A stretch of DNA of 64,000 bases, taken from positions 4,541,001 through 4,605,000 of the forward strand of contig NZ_CP029551.1 in assembly GCF_003173735.1 (NCBI RefSeq), read 5' to 3'. The notes under the pieces were generated by a model. It was not told where the DNA came from, did not search any database, and was given only the letters and a program-made list of their open reading frames with translations. This document shows positions 33,770 through 42,947 of this stretch, one piece after another (position 1 is the stretch's first letter; every line of letters starts with the position of its first letter). The stretch comes from Methylobacterium radiodurans (GTDB taxonomy: Bacteria; Pseudomonadota; Alphaproteobacteria; Rhizobiales; Beijerinckiaceae). The translations under genes and the position numbers were made by a program.

Positions 33770-36565
33770 TTGACGGTGGAAGGCGGGGGGACGGTGCGGG
33801 CCGGCGCGGCACAGGGCGAGGCGCCGTGGCGCGGCCTGTTCGAGCGGCTGCACGAGGGTTTGCTGATCGGTGAGGTCGTGCGCGACGCTGGCGGCGCCGT
33901 CGTCGACTGGCGCTACCTCGACGTGAACCCGGCCTGGGAGCGCCTCGTCGGCATCCCGCGCGAGCGGGCCGTCGGCCGCACGCTGCGCGAGTTGATCCCG
34001 GGGATCGAGGAGGCCTGGATCGCGGACGCCGCCCGCGCCGTGGCCGAGGCCGCGACCGTCACCTTCTCGCGGCGCGTGGAGGTGTTCGACCGCTGGTACG
34101 ACGGGCACGCCATCGCGCTCGGCGGCGAGCGCTTCGCCGTGCTGTTCCTGGAATCCACCGCGCGCCGCGACGCCGAGATGCGGCTGCGCGAGGGCGAGGC
34201 GCGCCTGCGCATGGCGGCCGACGCCGCCGAGATCGGGCTCTGGGACCTCGACTGCGCGGACGGGCGCCTGTTCTGGGACCAGCGGGTCCGGGCGATGTTC
34301 GGGGTCTCCGACGACCGGCCGATCGTCCTCGCGGATTTCGAGGCCGCCCTGCACCCGGACGACCGTGCGGCGGTGCGGGCGGTGCTGGACGCCGCCCTCG
34401 ATCCGGCCCGGCGCGCCCTCTACGACGTCGAGTACCGGGCTGTCGGCCTTGACGATGGTGTCGTGCGCTGGGTCGCCGCCAAGGGGCGCGGCCAGTTCGA
34501 CGAGGCGGGGCGCTGCCTGCGCTTCACCGGCACCGCCATCGATGTCGGCGCCCGCAAGGCCGCCGAGACCCGGCTCGCCGAGAGCGAGGCGCGCTTCCGC
34601 AACATGGCCGACCACGCCCCGGTCATGATGTGGGTGACCGATCCCAGCGGGGCTTGCACCTACCTCAACCGGAGCTGGTACGCCTATACGGGCCAGAGCG
34701 AGGCGGAGGGGCTCGGCCTCGGCTGGCTCGACGCGGTGCATCCGGACGACCGCGGCTGGTCGGGCGAGACCTTCCTCGCCGCCAACGCCCGGCAGGCGCC
34801 GTTCCGGATCGAATACCGCCTGCGCGGGGCGGACGGGCGCTACCGTTGGTTCATCGACGCGGCCGAGCCGCGGCTCGCCGAGGACGGGAGCTTCCTCGGC
34901 TATATCGGCTCGGTCGCCGACATCCACGACCGCAAGGAGGCCGAGCAGCGCCTGGTGGACGCCACGCGCCGGCTCGACGCCATCCTCAACAACGCCACCC
35001 AGGCGATCTTCCTGATGGATGAGCGCCAGCACTGCGCCTACATGAACCGGGCGGCCGAGCAGCTCACCGGCTACAGCCTCGCCGAGACCGCCGGGCGCGC
35101 GCTGCACGACGTCGTGCACCACACCCGGCCGGACGGCTCGCCCTACCCCCTCTGCGAGTGCCCGATCGACCAGGCCTTCCCTGAGAACAACCAGGAGCAG
35201 GGCGAGGAGGTCTTCGTCCACCGGGACGGCTCGTTCTACCCCGTGGCCTTCACGGCGAGCCCGATCCGCGACGAGACGGGCCGGCCCATCGGCACGGTGA
35301 TCGAGGCCCGCAACATCGAGGCGGAGCTGCGCGCCAAGGCGGCGCTCGAGGCCTTCAACGCGACGCTGGAGGGGCGCGTCGCCGAGGAGGTCGCCGCCCG
35401 CGAGAGCGCAGAGGCGGCCCTGCGGCAGTCGCAGAAGATGGAGGCGGTGGGCCAGTTGACCGGCGGCCTCGCCCACGACTTCAACAATCTGCTCACCGGC
35501 ATCACCGGCTCGCTCGAACTCCTGCAGACCCGCATGGGCCAGGGCCGGATGACCGATCTCGACCGCTACATCAACGCCGCGCAGGGGGCGGCGCGCCGCG
35601 CTGCCGCCCTGACGCACAGGCTTCTCGCCTTCTCGCGCCGCCAGACCCTCGACCCGAAGCCGACCGACGTGAACCGCCTGGTGGCGGGCATGGAGGAGCT
35701 GATCCGCCGCACCATCGGCCCGTCCGTGACCCTGGAGGTGGTCGGCGCCGCGAGCCTCTGGTCCGCGCTCGTCGATCCGAGCCAGCTCGAGAACGCGCTC
35801 CTGAACCTCTGCATCAACGCGCGCGACGCCATGCCGGAGGGCGGGCGCATCACCATCGAGACCGCCAACCGCTGGCTCGACCACCGCGCCGCCCGAGACC
35901 GCGACCTCGATCCCGGGCAGTACCTGTCGCTGTGCGTCACGGATACCGGCACCGGCATGACGCCCGAGGTGATCGCCAAGGCCTTCGACCCGTTCTTCAC
36001 CACGAAGCCGATCGGCCAGGGCACGGGCCTCGGCCTCTCCATGATCTACGGCTTCGTGCGCCAGTCCGGCGGTCAGGTGCGGATCTACTCGGAGGTCGGC
36101 CAGGGGACGACCATGTGCCTCTACCTGCCGCGCCACCACGGGGCGGCCGAGGGCGCCGAGCCGCTGCCCGACCTCGCCGCCGCACCGCGCGCCGAGCAGG
36201 GCGAGACCGTGCTCGTCGTGGACGACGAGCCCTCGGTCCGGATGCTGGTGACGGAGGTTCTGGAGGATCTCGGCTACACCGCCATCGAGGCGGCGGACGG
36301 GCCCTCCGGCCTGCGCCTGCTCCAGTCCGACATCCGCATCGACCTGCTCGTCACCGATGTCGGGCTGCCCGGCGGCATGAACGGCCGGCAGGTGGCGGAC
36401 GCCGCCCGCGTCGGCCGGCCGGGCCTGAAGGTCCTGTTCATCACCGGCTACGCCGAGAACGCCGCGGTCGGGAACGGGCATCTGGAACCCGGCATGGCGG
36501 TGCTCACCAAGCCCTTCGTCATGGAGACGCTGGCCAGCCGCATCCGCGAGATGATCGAGGGATGA
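33770..36565 (+). CDS. PAS-domain hybrid sensor histidine kinase/response regulator
   Basis: A 931-residue cytoplasmic protein without transmembrane segments. Four PAS modules lie at about residues 22-130, 145-262, 272-388 and 400-515; two end in PAC-type (IDVGARKAAE, VADIHDRKEAE). A coiled region leads to HisKA with the phospho-acceptor His569 (GGLAHDFNNLLTGI), then HATPase_c with the N box ALLNLCINARDAMP, G1 VTDTGTGM, F box FDPFFTTKP and G2 GQGTGLGLSM. The receiver domain (813-930) has the acidic pair in VLVVDDE, Asp863 and Lys914. The start is a TTG at 33770 with GGAG seven bases upstream. Input ligand unknown. It is followed by kaiC-like and HWE kinase genes on the same strand. Confidence 0.94.
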   Translation: MTVEGGGTVRAGAAQGEAPWRGLFERLHEGLLIGEVVRDAGGAVVDWRYLDVNPAWERLVGIPRERAVGRTLRELIPGIEEAWIADAARAVAEAATVTFSRRVEVFDRWYDGHAIALGGERFAVLFLESTARRDAEMRLREGEARLRMAADAAEIGLWDLDCADGRLFWDQRVRAMFGVSDDRPIVLADFEAALHPDDRAAVRAVLDAALDPARRALYDVEYRAVGLDDGVVRWVAAKGRGQFDEAGRCLRFTGTAIDVGARKAAETRLAESEARFRNMADHAPVMMWVTDPSGACTYLNRSWYAYTGQSEAEGLGLGWLDAVHPDDRGWSGETFLAANARQAPFRIEYRLRGADGRYRWFIDAAEPRLAEDGSFLGYIGSVADIHDRKEAEQRLVDATRRLDAILNNATQAIFLMDERQHCAYMNRAAEQLTGYSLAETAGRALHDVVHHTRPDGSPYPLCECPIDQAFPENNQEQGEEVFVHRDGSFYPVAFTASPIRDETGRPIGTVIEARNIEAELRAKAALEAFNATLEGRVAEEVAARESAEAALRQSQKMEAVGQLTGGLAHDFNNLLTGITGSLELLQTRMGQGRMTDLDRYINAAQGAARRAAALTHRLLAFSRRQTLDPKPTDVNRLVAGMEELIRRTIGPSVTLEVVGAASLWSALVDPSQLENALLNLCINARDAMPEGGRITIETANRWLDHRAARDRDLDPGQYLSLCVTDTGTGMTPEVIAKAFDPFFTTKPIGQGTGLGLSMIYGFVRQSGGQVRIYSEVGQGTTMCLYLPRHHGAAEGAEPLPDLAAAPRAEQGETVLVVDDEPSVRMLVTEVLEDLGYTAIEAADGPSGLRLLQSDIRIDLLVTDVGLPGGMNGRQVADAARVGRPGLKVLFITGYAENAAVGNGHLEPGMAVLTKPFVMETLASRIREMIEG

Positions 36566-36702: not shown

Positions 36703-38199
36703 GTGCAGATTCCCGATAGCGATGCCCAACCCGTGCCCGCGGGCGTGGACGGCCTCGATTACCTCCTGCGCGGCGGCTACGCCCGCAACCGGTCCCATCT
36801 GATCGAGGGCCGGCCCGGCTCCGGCAAGACCACCCTCGCCATGCAGTTCCTGCTGGAGGGCGCGCGGCGGGGGGAGCGCTGCCTCTACATCACCCTGACG
36901 GAGAGCCGCCGCGAGCTGATGAACATCGCCGGGCGGCACGGCTGGTCCCTCGACGGCATCGAGATCGTCGAGCTGGTGCCGCCCGAACTCAGCCTCGACC
37001 CGCGCCAGCAGCAGAGCCTCGTCCACGCCTCCGACCTCGAACTCGGCGAGACCGTGCACCTCGCGATGGCCGAGATCGAGCGGGCCAAGCCCGACCGTCT
37101 GGTCTTCGACAGCCTCTCGGAGATCCGGCTGCTCTCGCAGGGGTCCCTGCGCTACCGCCGGCAGGTCCACGCCCTGCGCAGCTTCCTGCTGATCCAGAAC
37201 ACCACCGCGCTGCTGCTCGACGACCTCACGGCCGAGGCCGACGACCTCAACCTGCACAGTCTCAGCCACGCGGTGATCCGCCTGGAGCACCTCGCGCCGC
37301 TCTACGGTGCGGAGCGGCGCCGCCTGCGCGTGATCAAGATGCGCGGCACCGCCTTCCGGGGCGGCTTCCACGACTACGTCATCCGCCGCGGCGGCCTCGT
37401 GATCTACCCGCGCCTCGTCGCGGCGGACCATCCGGCCAGCTTCCCGGAGGCGCGGATCGGCAGCGGCAACCGCGCCCTCGACGCCCTGGTCGGCGGCGGC
37501 CTCGACCGCGGCACCAGCACGATGCTGATCGGCCCTTCGGGCGTCGGCAAGTCGACGGTCGCTGCGGCCTACGTGATCGCTGCGCTCGAGCGCGGCCAGC
37601 GCGCCTTGATGCTCTCCTTCGACGAGAGCACGAGCGTGCTGATGCGCCGCTGCCGCGGCCTCGGCCTGGACCTCGCCCCCCACGTCGAGAGCGGGCTCCT
37701 GCGCATCGAGCAGATCGATCCGGCCGAGATCTCGCCGGGCGAGATGGCCGCGCGGGTGCAGGACGCGGTCGAGCGCGAGGGCGCCGGCATCGTGGTGATC
37801 GACTCCCTCACCGGCTACCACAACGCGATGCCGGAGGAGCGCTTCCTGCTCCTCCAGATGCACGAGATCCTGACCTATCTGAACCAGCAGGGCGTGGTCA
37901 CGCTCCTGATCCTCGCCCAGCACGGGATGGTCGGCCCGATGAAGGCGGCGGTCGACCTGACCTATCTCAGCGACACGATCCTGCTGTTCCGGACCTTCGA
38001 GGCGGCGGGCGCGCTCCGCCGCGCGATCTCGGTGGCCAAGAAGCGCACGGGCGGGCACGAATCGACCATCCGCGAGTTGCGGATCGACAGCGGCGGAATC
38101 ACGGTCGGCGAGCCGCTGCGGCGGTTCCGCGGGGTGATGACCGGGGTGCCCACCTTCGACGGCGAGGCGGACGCTCTCCTGCCCAACCCCGATGCCTGA
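36703..38199 (+). CDS. KaiC-like two-domain RecA-fold ATPase
   Basis: A 498-residue protein with two tandem KaiC domains. Domain 1 has Walker A at 36-43 (GRPGSGKT), the catalytic-Glu region YITLTESRREL and Walker B LVFDSLSE. Domain 2 has Walker A at 277-284 (GPSGVGKS), LSFDESTSVL and Walker B IVVIDSL, ending in RAISVAKKRTGGHESTIRELRI and VGEPLRRFRGVMTG. By eye the cyanobacterial phospho-site pair Ser431/Thr432 aligns to Thr420/Tyr421 (VDLTYLSDTILL). There is no KaiA or KaiB gene here, so a circadian oscillator is not implied. The start is a GTG at 36703 with GAGG about ten bases upstream. The stop overlaps the HWE kinase start by 8 bp, so the two are co-translated. Confidence 0.9.
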   Translation: MQIPDSDAQPVPAGVDGLDYLLRGGYARNRSHLIEGRPGSGKTTLAMQFLLEGARRGERCLYITLTESRRELMNIAGRHGWSLDGIEIVELVPPELSLDPRQQQSLVHASDLELGETVHLAMAEIERAKPDRLVFDSLSEIRLLSQGSLRYRRQVHALRSFLLIQNTTALLLDDLTAEADDLNLHSLSHAVIRLEHLAPLYGAERRRLRVIKMRGTAFRGGFHDYVIRRGGLVIYPRLVAADHPASFPEARIGSGNRALDALVGGGLDRGTSTMLIGPSGVGKSTVAAAYVIAALERGQRALMLSFDESTSVLMRRCRGLGLDLAPHVESGLLRIEQIDPAEISPGEMAARVQDAVEREGAGIVVIDSLTGYHNAMPEERFLLLQMHEILTYLNQQGVVTLLILAQHGMVGPMKAAVDLTYLSDTILLFRTFEAAGALRRAISVAKKRTGGHESTIRELRIDSGGITVGEPLRRFRGVMTGVPTFDGEADALLPNPDA

Positions 38200-39238
38200 A
38201 CCCGCCCTGCCGGTCCTGATCCTGGCGCCGCAGGGGCGGGACGCCGAGGTCGCCACCTCCATCCTGACCGAGGCCGGCATTCCGAACCGGATCTGCGCCT
38301 CGTTGCCAGAGCTGGTGGAGGCGCTGGACGGCGCGACCTGCGCGGTCGTGACCGAGGAGGCCCTGCTCGCGGCCAACCGCCAGATCCTGGCAGACTGGGT
38401 CGCGCGCCAACCCCCCTGGTCGGACTTTCCCTTCATCCTGCTGACCCTGCGCCGGGGCCACCCCGACCCGCGGCTCGCCGAGGCGCTCGGCAACGTCAAC
38501 TCCCTGGAGCGGCCCTTCCACCCCTCCACGCTCGTGATGGCCGCGCGCTTCGCGGAGCGGGCGCGCCGCCGCCAGCACGATGCGCGGGCCCATCTGGAGG
38601 AGCGCGAGCGCACCGCCGAGCGCCAGGCCTTGCTGATCCGCGAGTTGCACCACCGGGTGAAGAACACGCTGGCCACAGTCCAGGGGCTGCTCGGCGCCTC
38701 GGCGCGGGCGGCTACCAGCGTGGATGCCTTCTACAACGCCTTCTCGGCGCGCATCATCTCGCTCGCCAAGACCCACAACCTGCTGACCGAGGATTACTGG
38801 CAGCAGGCCTCCTTGCGCGAGATGCTGGTCAACGAGCTCGGCCCCTACGACGACGAGCGGGGCGGGCGCATCCGGCTCGACGGGCCGGCGGTCGAGCTGA
38901 TCGGCGATCTCGCCGTGCCGACCGGCATGGCGATCCACGAACTCACCACCAACGCCGCCAAGCACGGCGCGCTCTCGACGCCGGAGGGGCGCGTCGCGGT
39001 GCGCTGGGACGTGCGCGAGGCGGAGGGGGCCCGCGTGCTGCGGCTCGACTGGCGCGAGAGCGGCGGCCCGCCGGTCGCCGAGCCGACCCGCAGGGGGTTC
39101 GGCTCGACGCTGCTCCAGCGGGTTCTGAAGATCCAGTGCGGCGCGGAGATCGCGTTCGCCTACGAGCCGGCGGGCCTGCATTTCCACATGGAGGTGCCGC
39201 TGCCCGACCAGCGCACCGTGCCGGCCTACGAGGGCTGA
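38192..39238 (+). CDS. HWE-family histidine kinase with N-terminal receiver-like domain
   Basis: A 348-residue cytoplasmic kinase. Residues 7-120 form a CheY-like fold (VLILAPQGRD, then CAVVTEEALL where the phospho-acceptor Asp would be, and SLERPFHPSTL where the conserved Lys would be), so the receiver is degenerate. The kinase core begins ALLIRELHHRVKNTLATVQ with the likely phospho-acceptor His154, the HWE histidine box HELTTNAAKHGAL (249-261) and the W-x-E motif LDWRESGG, then GFGSTLLQRV. HWE kinases often act in general stress or light signalling. The ATG lies inside the last codons of the kaiC-like gene, which strongly suggests a shared pathway. Confidence 0.9.
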   Translation: MPEPALPVLILAPQGRDAEVATSILTEAGIPNRICASLPELVEALDGATCAVVTEEALLAANRQILADWVARQPPWSDFPFILLTLRRGHPDPRLAEALGNVNSLERPFHPSTLVMAARFAERARRRQHDARAHLEERERTAERQALLIRELHHRVKNTLATVQGLLGASARAATSVDAFYNAFSARIISLAKTHNLLTEDYWQQASLREMLVNELGPYDDERGGRIRLDGPAVELIGDLAVPTGMAIHELTTNAAKHGALSTPEGRVAVRWDVREAEGARVLRLDWRESGGPPVAEPTRRGFGSTLLQRVLKIQCGAEIAFAYEPAGLHFHMEVPLPDQRTVPAYEG

Positions 39239-42494: not shown

Positions 42495-42947
42495 TTGTTC
42501 CGTCTGATCTACAAGAGCGCGGCGCGCCACGAGGCGGAGGAGATGTTCCGGGCGCCCAACCTGCCGGCCATTCTGGAATCCTCGCGTCGGCGGAATGGCG
42601 AGCACGGCATCTCCGGCGTCCTCGTCTATACGGGTACCGGGTTCCTGCAGGTGCTGGAGGGCGGACAGGTCGAGGTCCTGGCCGTGTTCGAGCGCCTGCT
42701 TGTCGACCGGCGCCACCGCAGCGTCTCGGTGATCGAGATGGGCGAGGCCGAGCGGCGCCTGTTCGGCACCTGGTCGATGGGCTTCCTGGGGGCTTCGCCG
42801 GAGGCCGACGCGCGGCTCGAGGCCGCGCTCGGGCCCGTTTCGGGGCTTGAGCGGGATCCCGTGCGCCGGGTCGAGCTCCTGCGCTCGACGCTGCTCCTGC
42901 TCGTGGACGCGCCGATCAGCCTGCTCTGGCGCGAGGGCCCGATCTGA
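42495..42947 (+). CDS. BLUF-domain blue-light sensor protein
   Basis: A 150-residue protein with a single BLUF (FAD) domain at residues 1-95 and a short helical C-terminus. Key residues are present: Tyr6 (FRLIYKSAA), Asn34 in RRRNGEHGISGVLVY, the conserved Gln in FLQVLEGG (switch glutamine) and FGTWSMGF with the Trp/Met near the flavin. BLUF proteins change hydrogen bonding at the flavin upon blue light and act through partner proteins. No effector domain is fused here, so a partner is needed. The start is a TTG at 42495 with AGGA nine bases upstream. A strong terminator follows. Confidence 0.92.
   Translation: MFRLIYKSAARHEAEEMFRAPNLPAILESSRRRNGEHGISGVLVYTGTGFLQVLEGGQVEVLAVFERLLVDRRHRSVSVIEMGEAERRLFGTWSMGFLGASPEADARLEAALGPVSGLERDPVRRVELLRSTLLLLVDAPISLLWREGPI

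Follow-up and report, generated by a model that had tools for sequence, protein, structure and literature searches.

The closest described counterpart of the locus treated here is the gene pair Rta_04330/Rta_04340 of Ramlibacter tataouinensis, a member of the 'dark-blue' KaiC group described in 2011, in which a KaiC with a Ser/Thr-Tyr site is followed by a dedicated kinase, 'Nt_HK'. Co-transcription of this pair was supported by operon reverse transcription polymerase chain reaction, and a stand-alone timer with a SasA-like kinase as its readout was proposed for it (PMC3164672). In Methylobacterium extorquens AM1, a kaiB-less kaiC2-kaiR2 cluster exists beside a separate kaiC1-kaiB2-kaiB1 cluster (PMC8069551, PMC12573494); according to a review, KaiC2 is a negative regulator of ultraviolet (UV) resistance, and both its phosphorylation and its part in plant colonization require Ser426 (PMC8069551). 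In cyanobacteria, the histidine kinase SasA owes its dedication to KaiC to its N-terminal domain (PMC3164672). The pseudo-receivers of CikA and KaiA are receiver folds devoid of phosphorylation chemistry that act in Kai signalling, the one of CikA by binding KaiB (PMC12632262). Here we analyse a related pair from Methylobacterium radiodurans, located in a stretch of 64,000 nucleotides (NZ_CP029551.1, positions 4,541,001 to 4,605,000 of the forward strand; hereafter the window), in which a kaiC-like gene overlaps a gene encoding an HWE histidine kinase with a pseudo-receiver at its N-terminus. Sequence comparisons indicate that KaiC and the pseudo-receiver are a near-constant unit inherited together, behind which the transmitter is exchangeable. 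In the Methylobacteriaceae, the kinase seems to have exchanged its working half on two or more occasions and to have kept the half that faces KaiC. The features of the pair are as follows.

36703 to 38199, + strand: KaiC-like two-domain ATPase (PF06745), 498 amino acids from the GTG at 36703
36808 to 36834, + strand: CI P-loop, GRPGSGKTT; GxxGxGK in 108 of 110 loci, the remaining two being gapped there
37531 to 37557, + strand: CII P-loop, GPSGVGKST; GxxGxGK in 109 of 110 loci
37960 to 37965, + strand: Thr-Tyr at the position of the cyanobacterial Ser-Thr phospho-pair, according to the printed alignments
38192 to 39238, + strand: pseudo-receiver HWE histidine kinase, 348 amino acids, overlapping kaiC by 8 bp
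38192 to 38590, + strand: N-terminal pseudo-receiver domain of the kinase, residues 1-133, supported by the AlphaFold2 model and receiver matches
38642 to 38887, + strand: HWE_HK dimerisation and phospho-acceptor region (PF07536), residues 151-232, with His154

A preliminary description of the locus had reported the 8-bp overlap, the two P-loops, the Thr-Tyr pair in CII and a CheY-like kinase N-terminus lacking both the acceptor Asp and the conserved Lys, and all of these are borne out. The kinase ATG occupies 38192-38194 and the kaiC TGA 38197-38199. The kaiC reading frame is open from 36598 with no ATG near its start, and the GTG at 36703, its codon 36, is a plausible start among more than one possibility because most homologue matches begin near codon 30-46. 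Counted from this GTG the phospho-pair is T420-Y421, and counted from 36598 it is Thr455-Tyr456; the cyanobacterial pair is Ser431-Thr432. Membership in the KaiC family is supported by two PF06745 stretches (221.7 bits for the whole protein, cut-off 26.6), and the closest relatives in the PDB are KaiC proteins. The circadian KaiC equivalog of NCBIfam, TIGR02655, scores 139.3 bits on the window KaiC, under its cut-off of 546.25, and the CII pair is Thr-Tyr instead of the Ser-Thr of circadian KaiC. The CII Glu pair of this KaiC family reads Asp-Glu in 109 of the 110 loci.

The kinase core belongs to the HWE class (PF07536, 87.6 bits, cut-off 22.8). It matches HWE_HK and HisKA_2, gives no HisKA (PF00512) match in the Pfam scan, and carries the acceptor H154, invariant among 85 aligned kinases. 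Its best structural match is the LOV-HK of Brucella (5epv), which has the same type of core and a LOV sensor where the window kinase has the pseudo-receiver. LvrB (8vc9) also joins a receiver to a kinase core, but its receiver is phosphorylated. The N-terminal domain of the window kinase (38192-38590) has no Pfam match at E<=1, PF00072 included, and none of 80 copies of the domain has a Pfam match at E<=0.001. AlphaFold2 nevertheless models residues 1-135 as a (beta-alpha)5 receiver fold (predicted local distance difference test score 91, predicted template modelling score 0.88), the lists of structure and similarity matches are filled by receivers, and hhalign against six receivers gives a probability of 73.7% (E-value 2.9e-5). 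In the alignments the acceptor Asp is replaced by Glu55 and the conserved Lys by Arg107. Among 85 aligned rows, the assumed DD columns hold Asp in none, the Lys column holds Arg in 84, and the acceptor column holds Glu in 77, Asp in six and Ser in two. The six with Asp are L116, L130 and the Microvirga loci L110, L111, L115 and L120, in which the DD pair and the Lys are lost. All 85 rows share the signature D17, E56, Q73-x-x-W76-S77-D78, P108 and R127-Q128, and the pseudo-receiver is followed by a long helix (111-173). By modelled fold and by profile, the N-terminal domain is thus predicted to be of receiver type without the phosphorylation residues. The KaiB/SasA-like domain suggested in 2011 was rejected (hhalign probability 0.2% over seven columns, in a comparison with six KaiB rows only); no KaiB or SasA chain was seen among the structure matches listed, an absence that proves nothing.

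Compared by description rather than with the sequence of Rta_04340, the pair in the window has the arrangement and the Thr-Tyr site class of the Nt_HK/kaiC pair. A conserved kinase N-terminal domain and a cluster without kaiB are further likenesses to the Ramlibacter pair (PMC3164672). Kinases of the Ramlibacter group are drawn with HisKA/HATPase_c, whereas the window kinase is HWE; their N-terminal domain is likened to SasA/KaiB and to a receiver, whereas that of the window is a receiver by fold and profile; and kaiB is reported to be absent from the rest of such genomes, whereas the genome of M. radiodurans does carry kaiB elsewhere (PMC3164672). In the latter respect this genome resembles that of M. 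extorquens AM1, whose KaiC2 likewise has a phospho-residue at the first site, Ser426 instead of the Thr of the window KaiC (PMC8069551). Three of 11 Ser-Tyr KaiCs from genomes of the genus have Ser at 426 when counted from one of several possible ATGs, an indirect hint that places KaiC2 tentatively in the Ser-Tyr branch, where the kinases have HisKA cores. SasA differs from the window kinase in that its N-terminal domain is KaiB-like and not receiver-like. CikA carries its KaiB-binding pseudo-receiver in a C-terminal place, whereas the domain described here is N-terminal and the window-type pair occurs without KaiB.

The preliminary description had proposed a survey of the gene pair and a search for KaiB in the rest of the genome, and the survey returned a conserved association. 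Of 289 alphaproteobacterial genomes, sampled regardless of KaiC except for the inclusion of the window's own genome, 18 have the domain and 19 this KaiC type, with 18 having both (Fisher p about 1e-27); the scoring covered up to 14 domain candidates and up to five KaiC candidates in each genome. Every one of the 19 domain copies in this sample is situated downstream of a KaiC match, in the same orientation and at a distance of 17-72 bp. The domain is directly downstream of KaiC in 77 of 80 named loci, one contig ending at kaiC and two loci being without the kinase; this figure is biased, as the 80 are the best of 160 confirmed matches, picked by likeness to the window KaiC. A set of 30 loci comes from related genomes, the window's own among them, and all have the domain; in part they coincide with the named ones (L012 corresponds to L071, and L015 to L076). 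The domain also accompanies 12 of 14 KaiC copies in further regions, one of which repeats L036, and altogether it stands beside KaiC in 41 of the 43 places examined out of 60 with at least 52% identity. From the side of the kinase, 24 of 25 listed full-length matches adjoin a KaiC place. Variovorax, a genus of the same family as Ramlibacter, carries the domain in loci L095, L096 and L114.

Two KaiC copies of Methylobacterium soli (L131:2386-3855 and L139:2692-4149) have no downstream kinase and a Thr-His phospho-pair, and are apparently orphaned. Genomes G028, G006 and G020 each hold several pairs of KaiC and pseudo-receiver kinase, differing in branch and core type.

The transmitter behind the domain is less constant. 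A Pfam scan of 85 kinases, to which 84 of 107 were taken on, found HisKA in 66 and HWE_HK in 18, and the HWE-type loci come from Methylobacteriaceae (Methylobacterium, Microvirga) or from genomes of the window's own genus. In the KaiC tree, built after leaving out 31 rows (canonical KaiC, duplicates, fragments and long branches), HWE-linked KaiCs are split into groups that branch between KaiCs with the other type of core, and a single clade of them is rejected (log-likelihood difference 254, p 9e-13). A single clade of HWE cores is likewise rejected in the core tree, which leaves out L011, L071, L040, L168 and short matches (log-likelihood difference 130, p 2e-86): the cores form two groups, A and B, that are not sisters. 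Core identity is 40% between the two clades and 58% between clade A and a PAS-HWE kinase from the same genus. Five core changes are needed on the KaiC tree and three on a tree leaving out 13 rows (duplicates, fragments); some of them may be reversals once L167 and L169 are included, and we infer the direction of each exchange from the trees. That HWE cores were recruited at least twice is concluded from the distinct origins of clades A and B, and not from these change counts. In the trees and in the identity comparison below, 'HisKA' designates cores without a match to the HWE core of the window; a HisKA domain is confirmed by Pfam in L167 and L169. The closest natural exchange opposes L167 (HisKA with a C-terminal receiver) to L031 (HWE), whose KaiCs are 83% and domains 75% identical.

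The domain itself follows KaiC. The identity matrices of the two correlate over 113 loci (r=0.825, a value reached in 0 of 2000 permutations). For a given level of KaiC identity, domains are about as similar across cores as within them (cross-core/same-core 0.41/0.40, 0.46/0.46, 0.61/0.59 and 0.69/0.72, the last resting on four cross-core pairs). The phospho-pair is Thr-Tyr in all 34 HWE-linked loci; in the 73 others it is Ser-Tyr in 62, Thr-Tyr in 10 and Ser-Phe in one. Thr as an adaptation to the HWE core was considered and discarded. The KaiCs of L167 and L169 branch among those of HWE clade B, and because they too are Thr-Tyr despite their HisKA cores, the phospho-residue follows the KaiC lineage, with no evidence of coupling to the core.

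The search for KaiB gave a mixed answer. The preliminary description had the locus without KaiA and KaiB, which is correct for the locus itself and, as regards kaiA, for the whole genome: PF07688 has no match there, while the control, S. elongatus, gives one. Two kaiB genes are nevertheless present elsewhere (G000:C1:3903113-3903657), directly after a second, canonical KaiC and unlinked to the window locus; as regards a KaiABC oscillator, the genome thus has kaiB, beside a different KaiC, and no kaiA match. This second kai cluster (L003:3326-7425; G000:C1:3901326-3905425) comprises the canonical KaiC, which by eye has a charged C-terminal extension, the two tandem kaiB genes and then a PAS hybrid kinase, and its layout matches the one reported for kaiC1-kaiB2-kaiB1 of M. 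extorquens. KaiB with a complete oscillator elsewhere in the genome had been named as a finding that would speak against the module, and KaiB does occur there, yet in the survey 14 of the 18 pair-bearing genomes have no KaiB match, a distribution that rules out KaiB dependence of the pair. Some association at the level of genomes remains: KaiB occurs in 10 of the 289 genomes, and is enriched in those bearing the pair (4 of 18 versus 6 of 271, p 0.002). Among same-genus genomes with the window's own pair type, 5 of 17 have it.

We favour, with a probability of about 0.6, a KaiB-independent two-protein switch in which the state of KaiC would be read by the pseudo-receiver and passed to the kinase core; that KaiC signals to the kinase is what we infer from the comparative data. 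KaiC would autophosphorylate at the CII Thr; in M. extorquens, KaiC2 needs the equivalent Ser for its phosphorylation (PMC8069551). The pseudo-receiver would then read the nucleotide or phospho-state of KaiC by direct binding, the long helix 111-173 would relay it to the core, and the HWE core would signal in trans to a response regulator, the output probably being stress (UV/heat) control. On family grounds only, PhyR is a candidate target of the HWE kinase. The general stress response of these bacteria is regulated by PhyR (PMC12573494). The Methylobacteriaceae would have kept the KaiC-reading half, with two unrelated HWE cores in the place that HisKA cores, often hybrids with a C-terminal receiver, occupy in relatives; through such exchanges an unchanged KaiC input would reach different response regulators. 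Going further, the pseudo-receiver could be a dedicated KaiC-reading domain, Glu-bearing and non-phosphorylatable, that binds KaiC directly and puts any core behind it, be it HisKA or HWE of either origin, under KaiC control. We hold this extension tentatively, at a little short of even odds; such a route would need neither the KaiB-like domain of SasA nor the KaiB on which CikA relies.

Adjacency, co-occurrence and co-inheritance fix the partnership of KaiC and kinase, not its direction. The kinase might instead act on KaiC, docking by its pseudo-receiver and controlling KaiC phosphorylation or turnover, with KaiC as the output, a scheme to which the phosphorylation of M. extorquens KaiC2 under UV and heat and its effects via LabA lend some weight (PMC8069551). 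We consider it unlikely, as the occurrence of more than one transmitter class behind one and the same KaiC and pseudo-receiver makes better sense with the transmitter at the output end. To our knowledge, moreover, phosphorylation of KaiC on Ser or Thr by histidine kinases is not established. Less likely still is a stand-alone hourglass, in which KaiC would keep time without KaiB and the kinase would be a SasA-like readout. The invariable Ser or Thr at the first phospho-position in the 107 loci with the domain would suit the timer proposed for Ramlibacter (PMC3164672), but the second position in these loci is Tyr, or Phe in one, the CI Glu pair has become Ser/Thr-Glu, the genome has no kaiA match, and the N-terminal domain is not SasA/KaiB-like by profile. 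The altered CI site and the Tyr at the second phospho-site argue, as far as sequence can tell, against a canonical clock. Ordinary genetic linkage, with a degenerate receiver kinase and a KaiC paralogue as neighbours that do not work together directly, would account for the KaiC copies without kinase and the one kinase without KaiC; it is highly improbable in view of the adjacency at 19 of 19 places in a sample not chosen for KaiC, of a neighbourhood kept across unrelated cores, and of invariant residues that are non-catalytic.

Several observations weigh against the favoured switch. An orphan kinase of the window type, with pseudo-receiver and HWE core, 74% identical over 340 residues and with the QPPWSD signature kept, lies in the related genome G011 (L203:5159-6199, - strand, contig C5); no KaiC was found within the 11 kb around it, and the KaiC copies of G011 sit on other contigs. 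This kinase rules out a strict exclusivity of the domain to the KaiC neighbourhood and therefore slightly lowers our confidence. Conversely, KaiC occurs without the domain in L131 and L139, in the second KaiC copy of both L163 and L168, and in G075 (37% identical), the sole such genome of the 289; the remaining 17 of the 60 KaiC places in relatives fall outside the count of 41 in 43. The pair is thus not obligatory. The first catalytic Glu of CI is replaced by Ser or Thr in all 110 loci of the KaiC alignment, so that timing by a canonical ATPase should not be taken for granted. The short tree of the domain itself, which left out nine rows plus short matches, rejects one HWE clade only marginally (p 0.045). 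Finally, the assignment of M. extorquens kaiR2 to the pseudo-receiver kinases is indirect, by sequence comparison.

Next to the pair, the window holds a further kinase gene.

33770 to 36565, + strand: upstream PAS-rich hybrid kinase (four PAS), judged by synteny to be outside the conserved module

The preliminary description had counted this gene as part of a signalling module with the pair, an assignment that must be given up: whole-gene synteny is retained in two of the 10 named clade A loci, those of the two nearest species (L071 and L072), and the count is confined to these 10, the other clade A loci having about 1.5 kb of flank. In L074 and L075, the C-terminal ~380 residues of the hybrid kinase have a 78% match on the opposite strand. 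A BLUF blue-light sensor gene (window 42495-42947) lies 3.3 kb downstream of the pseudo-receiver kinase; in M. gregans (L071) and M. hispanicum (L072), too, the pair is followed by a BLUF gene.

As the pair, the Thr-Tyr class and, in Ramlibacter, co-transcription are already published, this is not a new kind of system, and the earlier statement that no described role was known for the arrangement is overtaken by the Ramlibacter pair (PMC3164672) and by the kaiC2 phenotypes of M. extorquens (PMC8069551). Our searches of the open-licence literature turned up no description of the HWE version, none of the exchange of cores and none of this domain as a KaiC-tied receiver family. KaiC proteins are far commoner than clocks, and for most of them outside cyanobacteria little can be said about the output. 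According to a 2025 review, the switching of bacterial pseudo-receivers is a mystery, with few or no functional residues common to all of them (PMC12632262). The pseudo-receiver family described here escapes Pfam (0 of 80 copies matched), carries an invariant signature and, judging from its gene neighbours, has one main partner. As a natural control, the orphan kinase of G011 could show if the domain can act together with a KaiC from another place in the genome, and in genomes with several pairs (G028, G006 and G020) partner specificity between paralogues is testable in one strain. Since natural cores differ behind the domain, the prediction that the domain alone confers control by KaiC is testable with natural proteins from a single genus.

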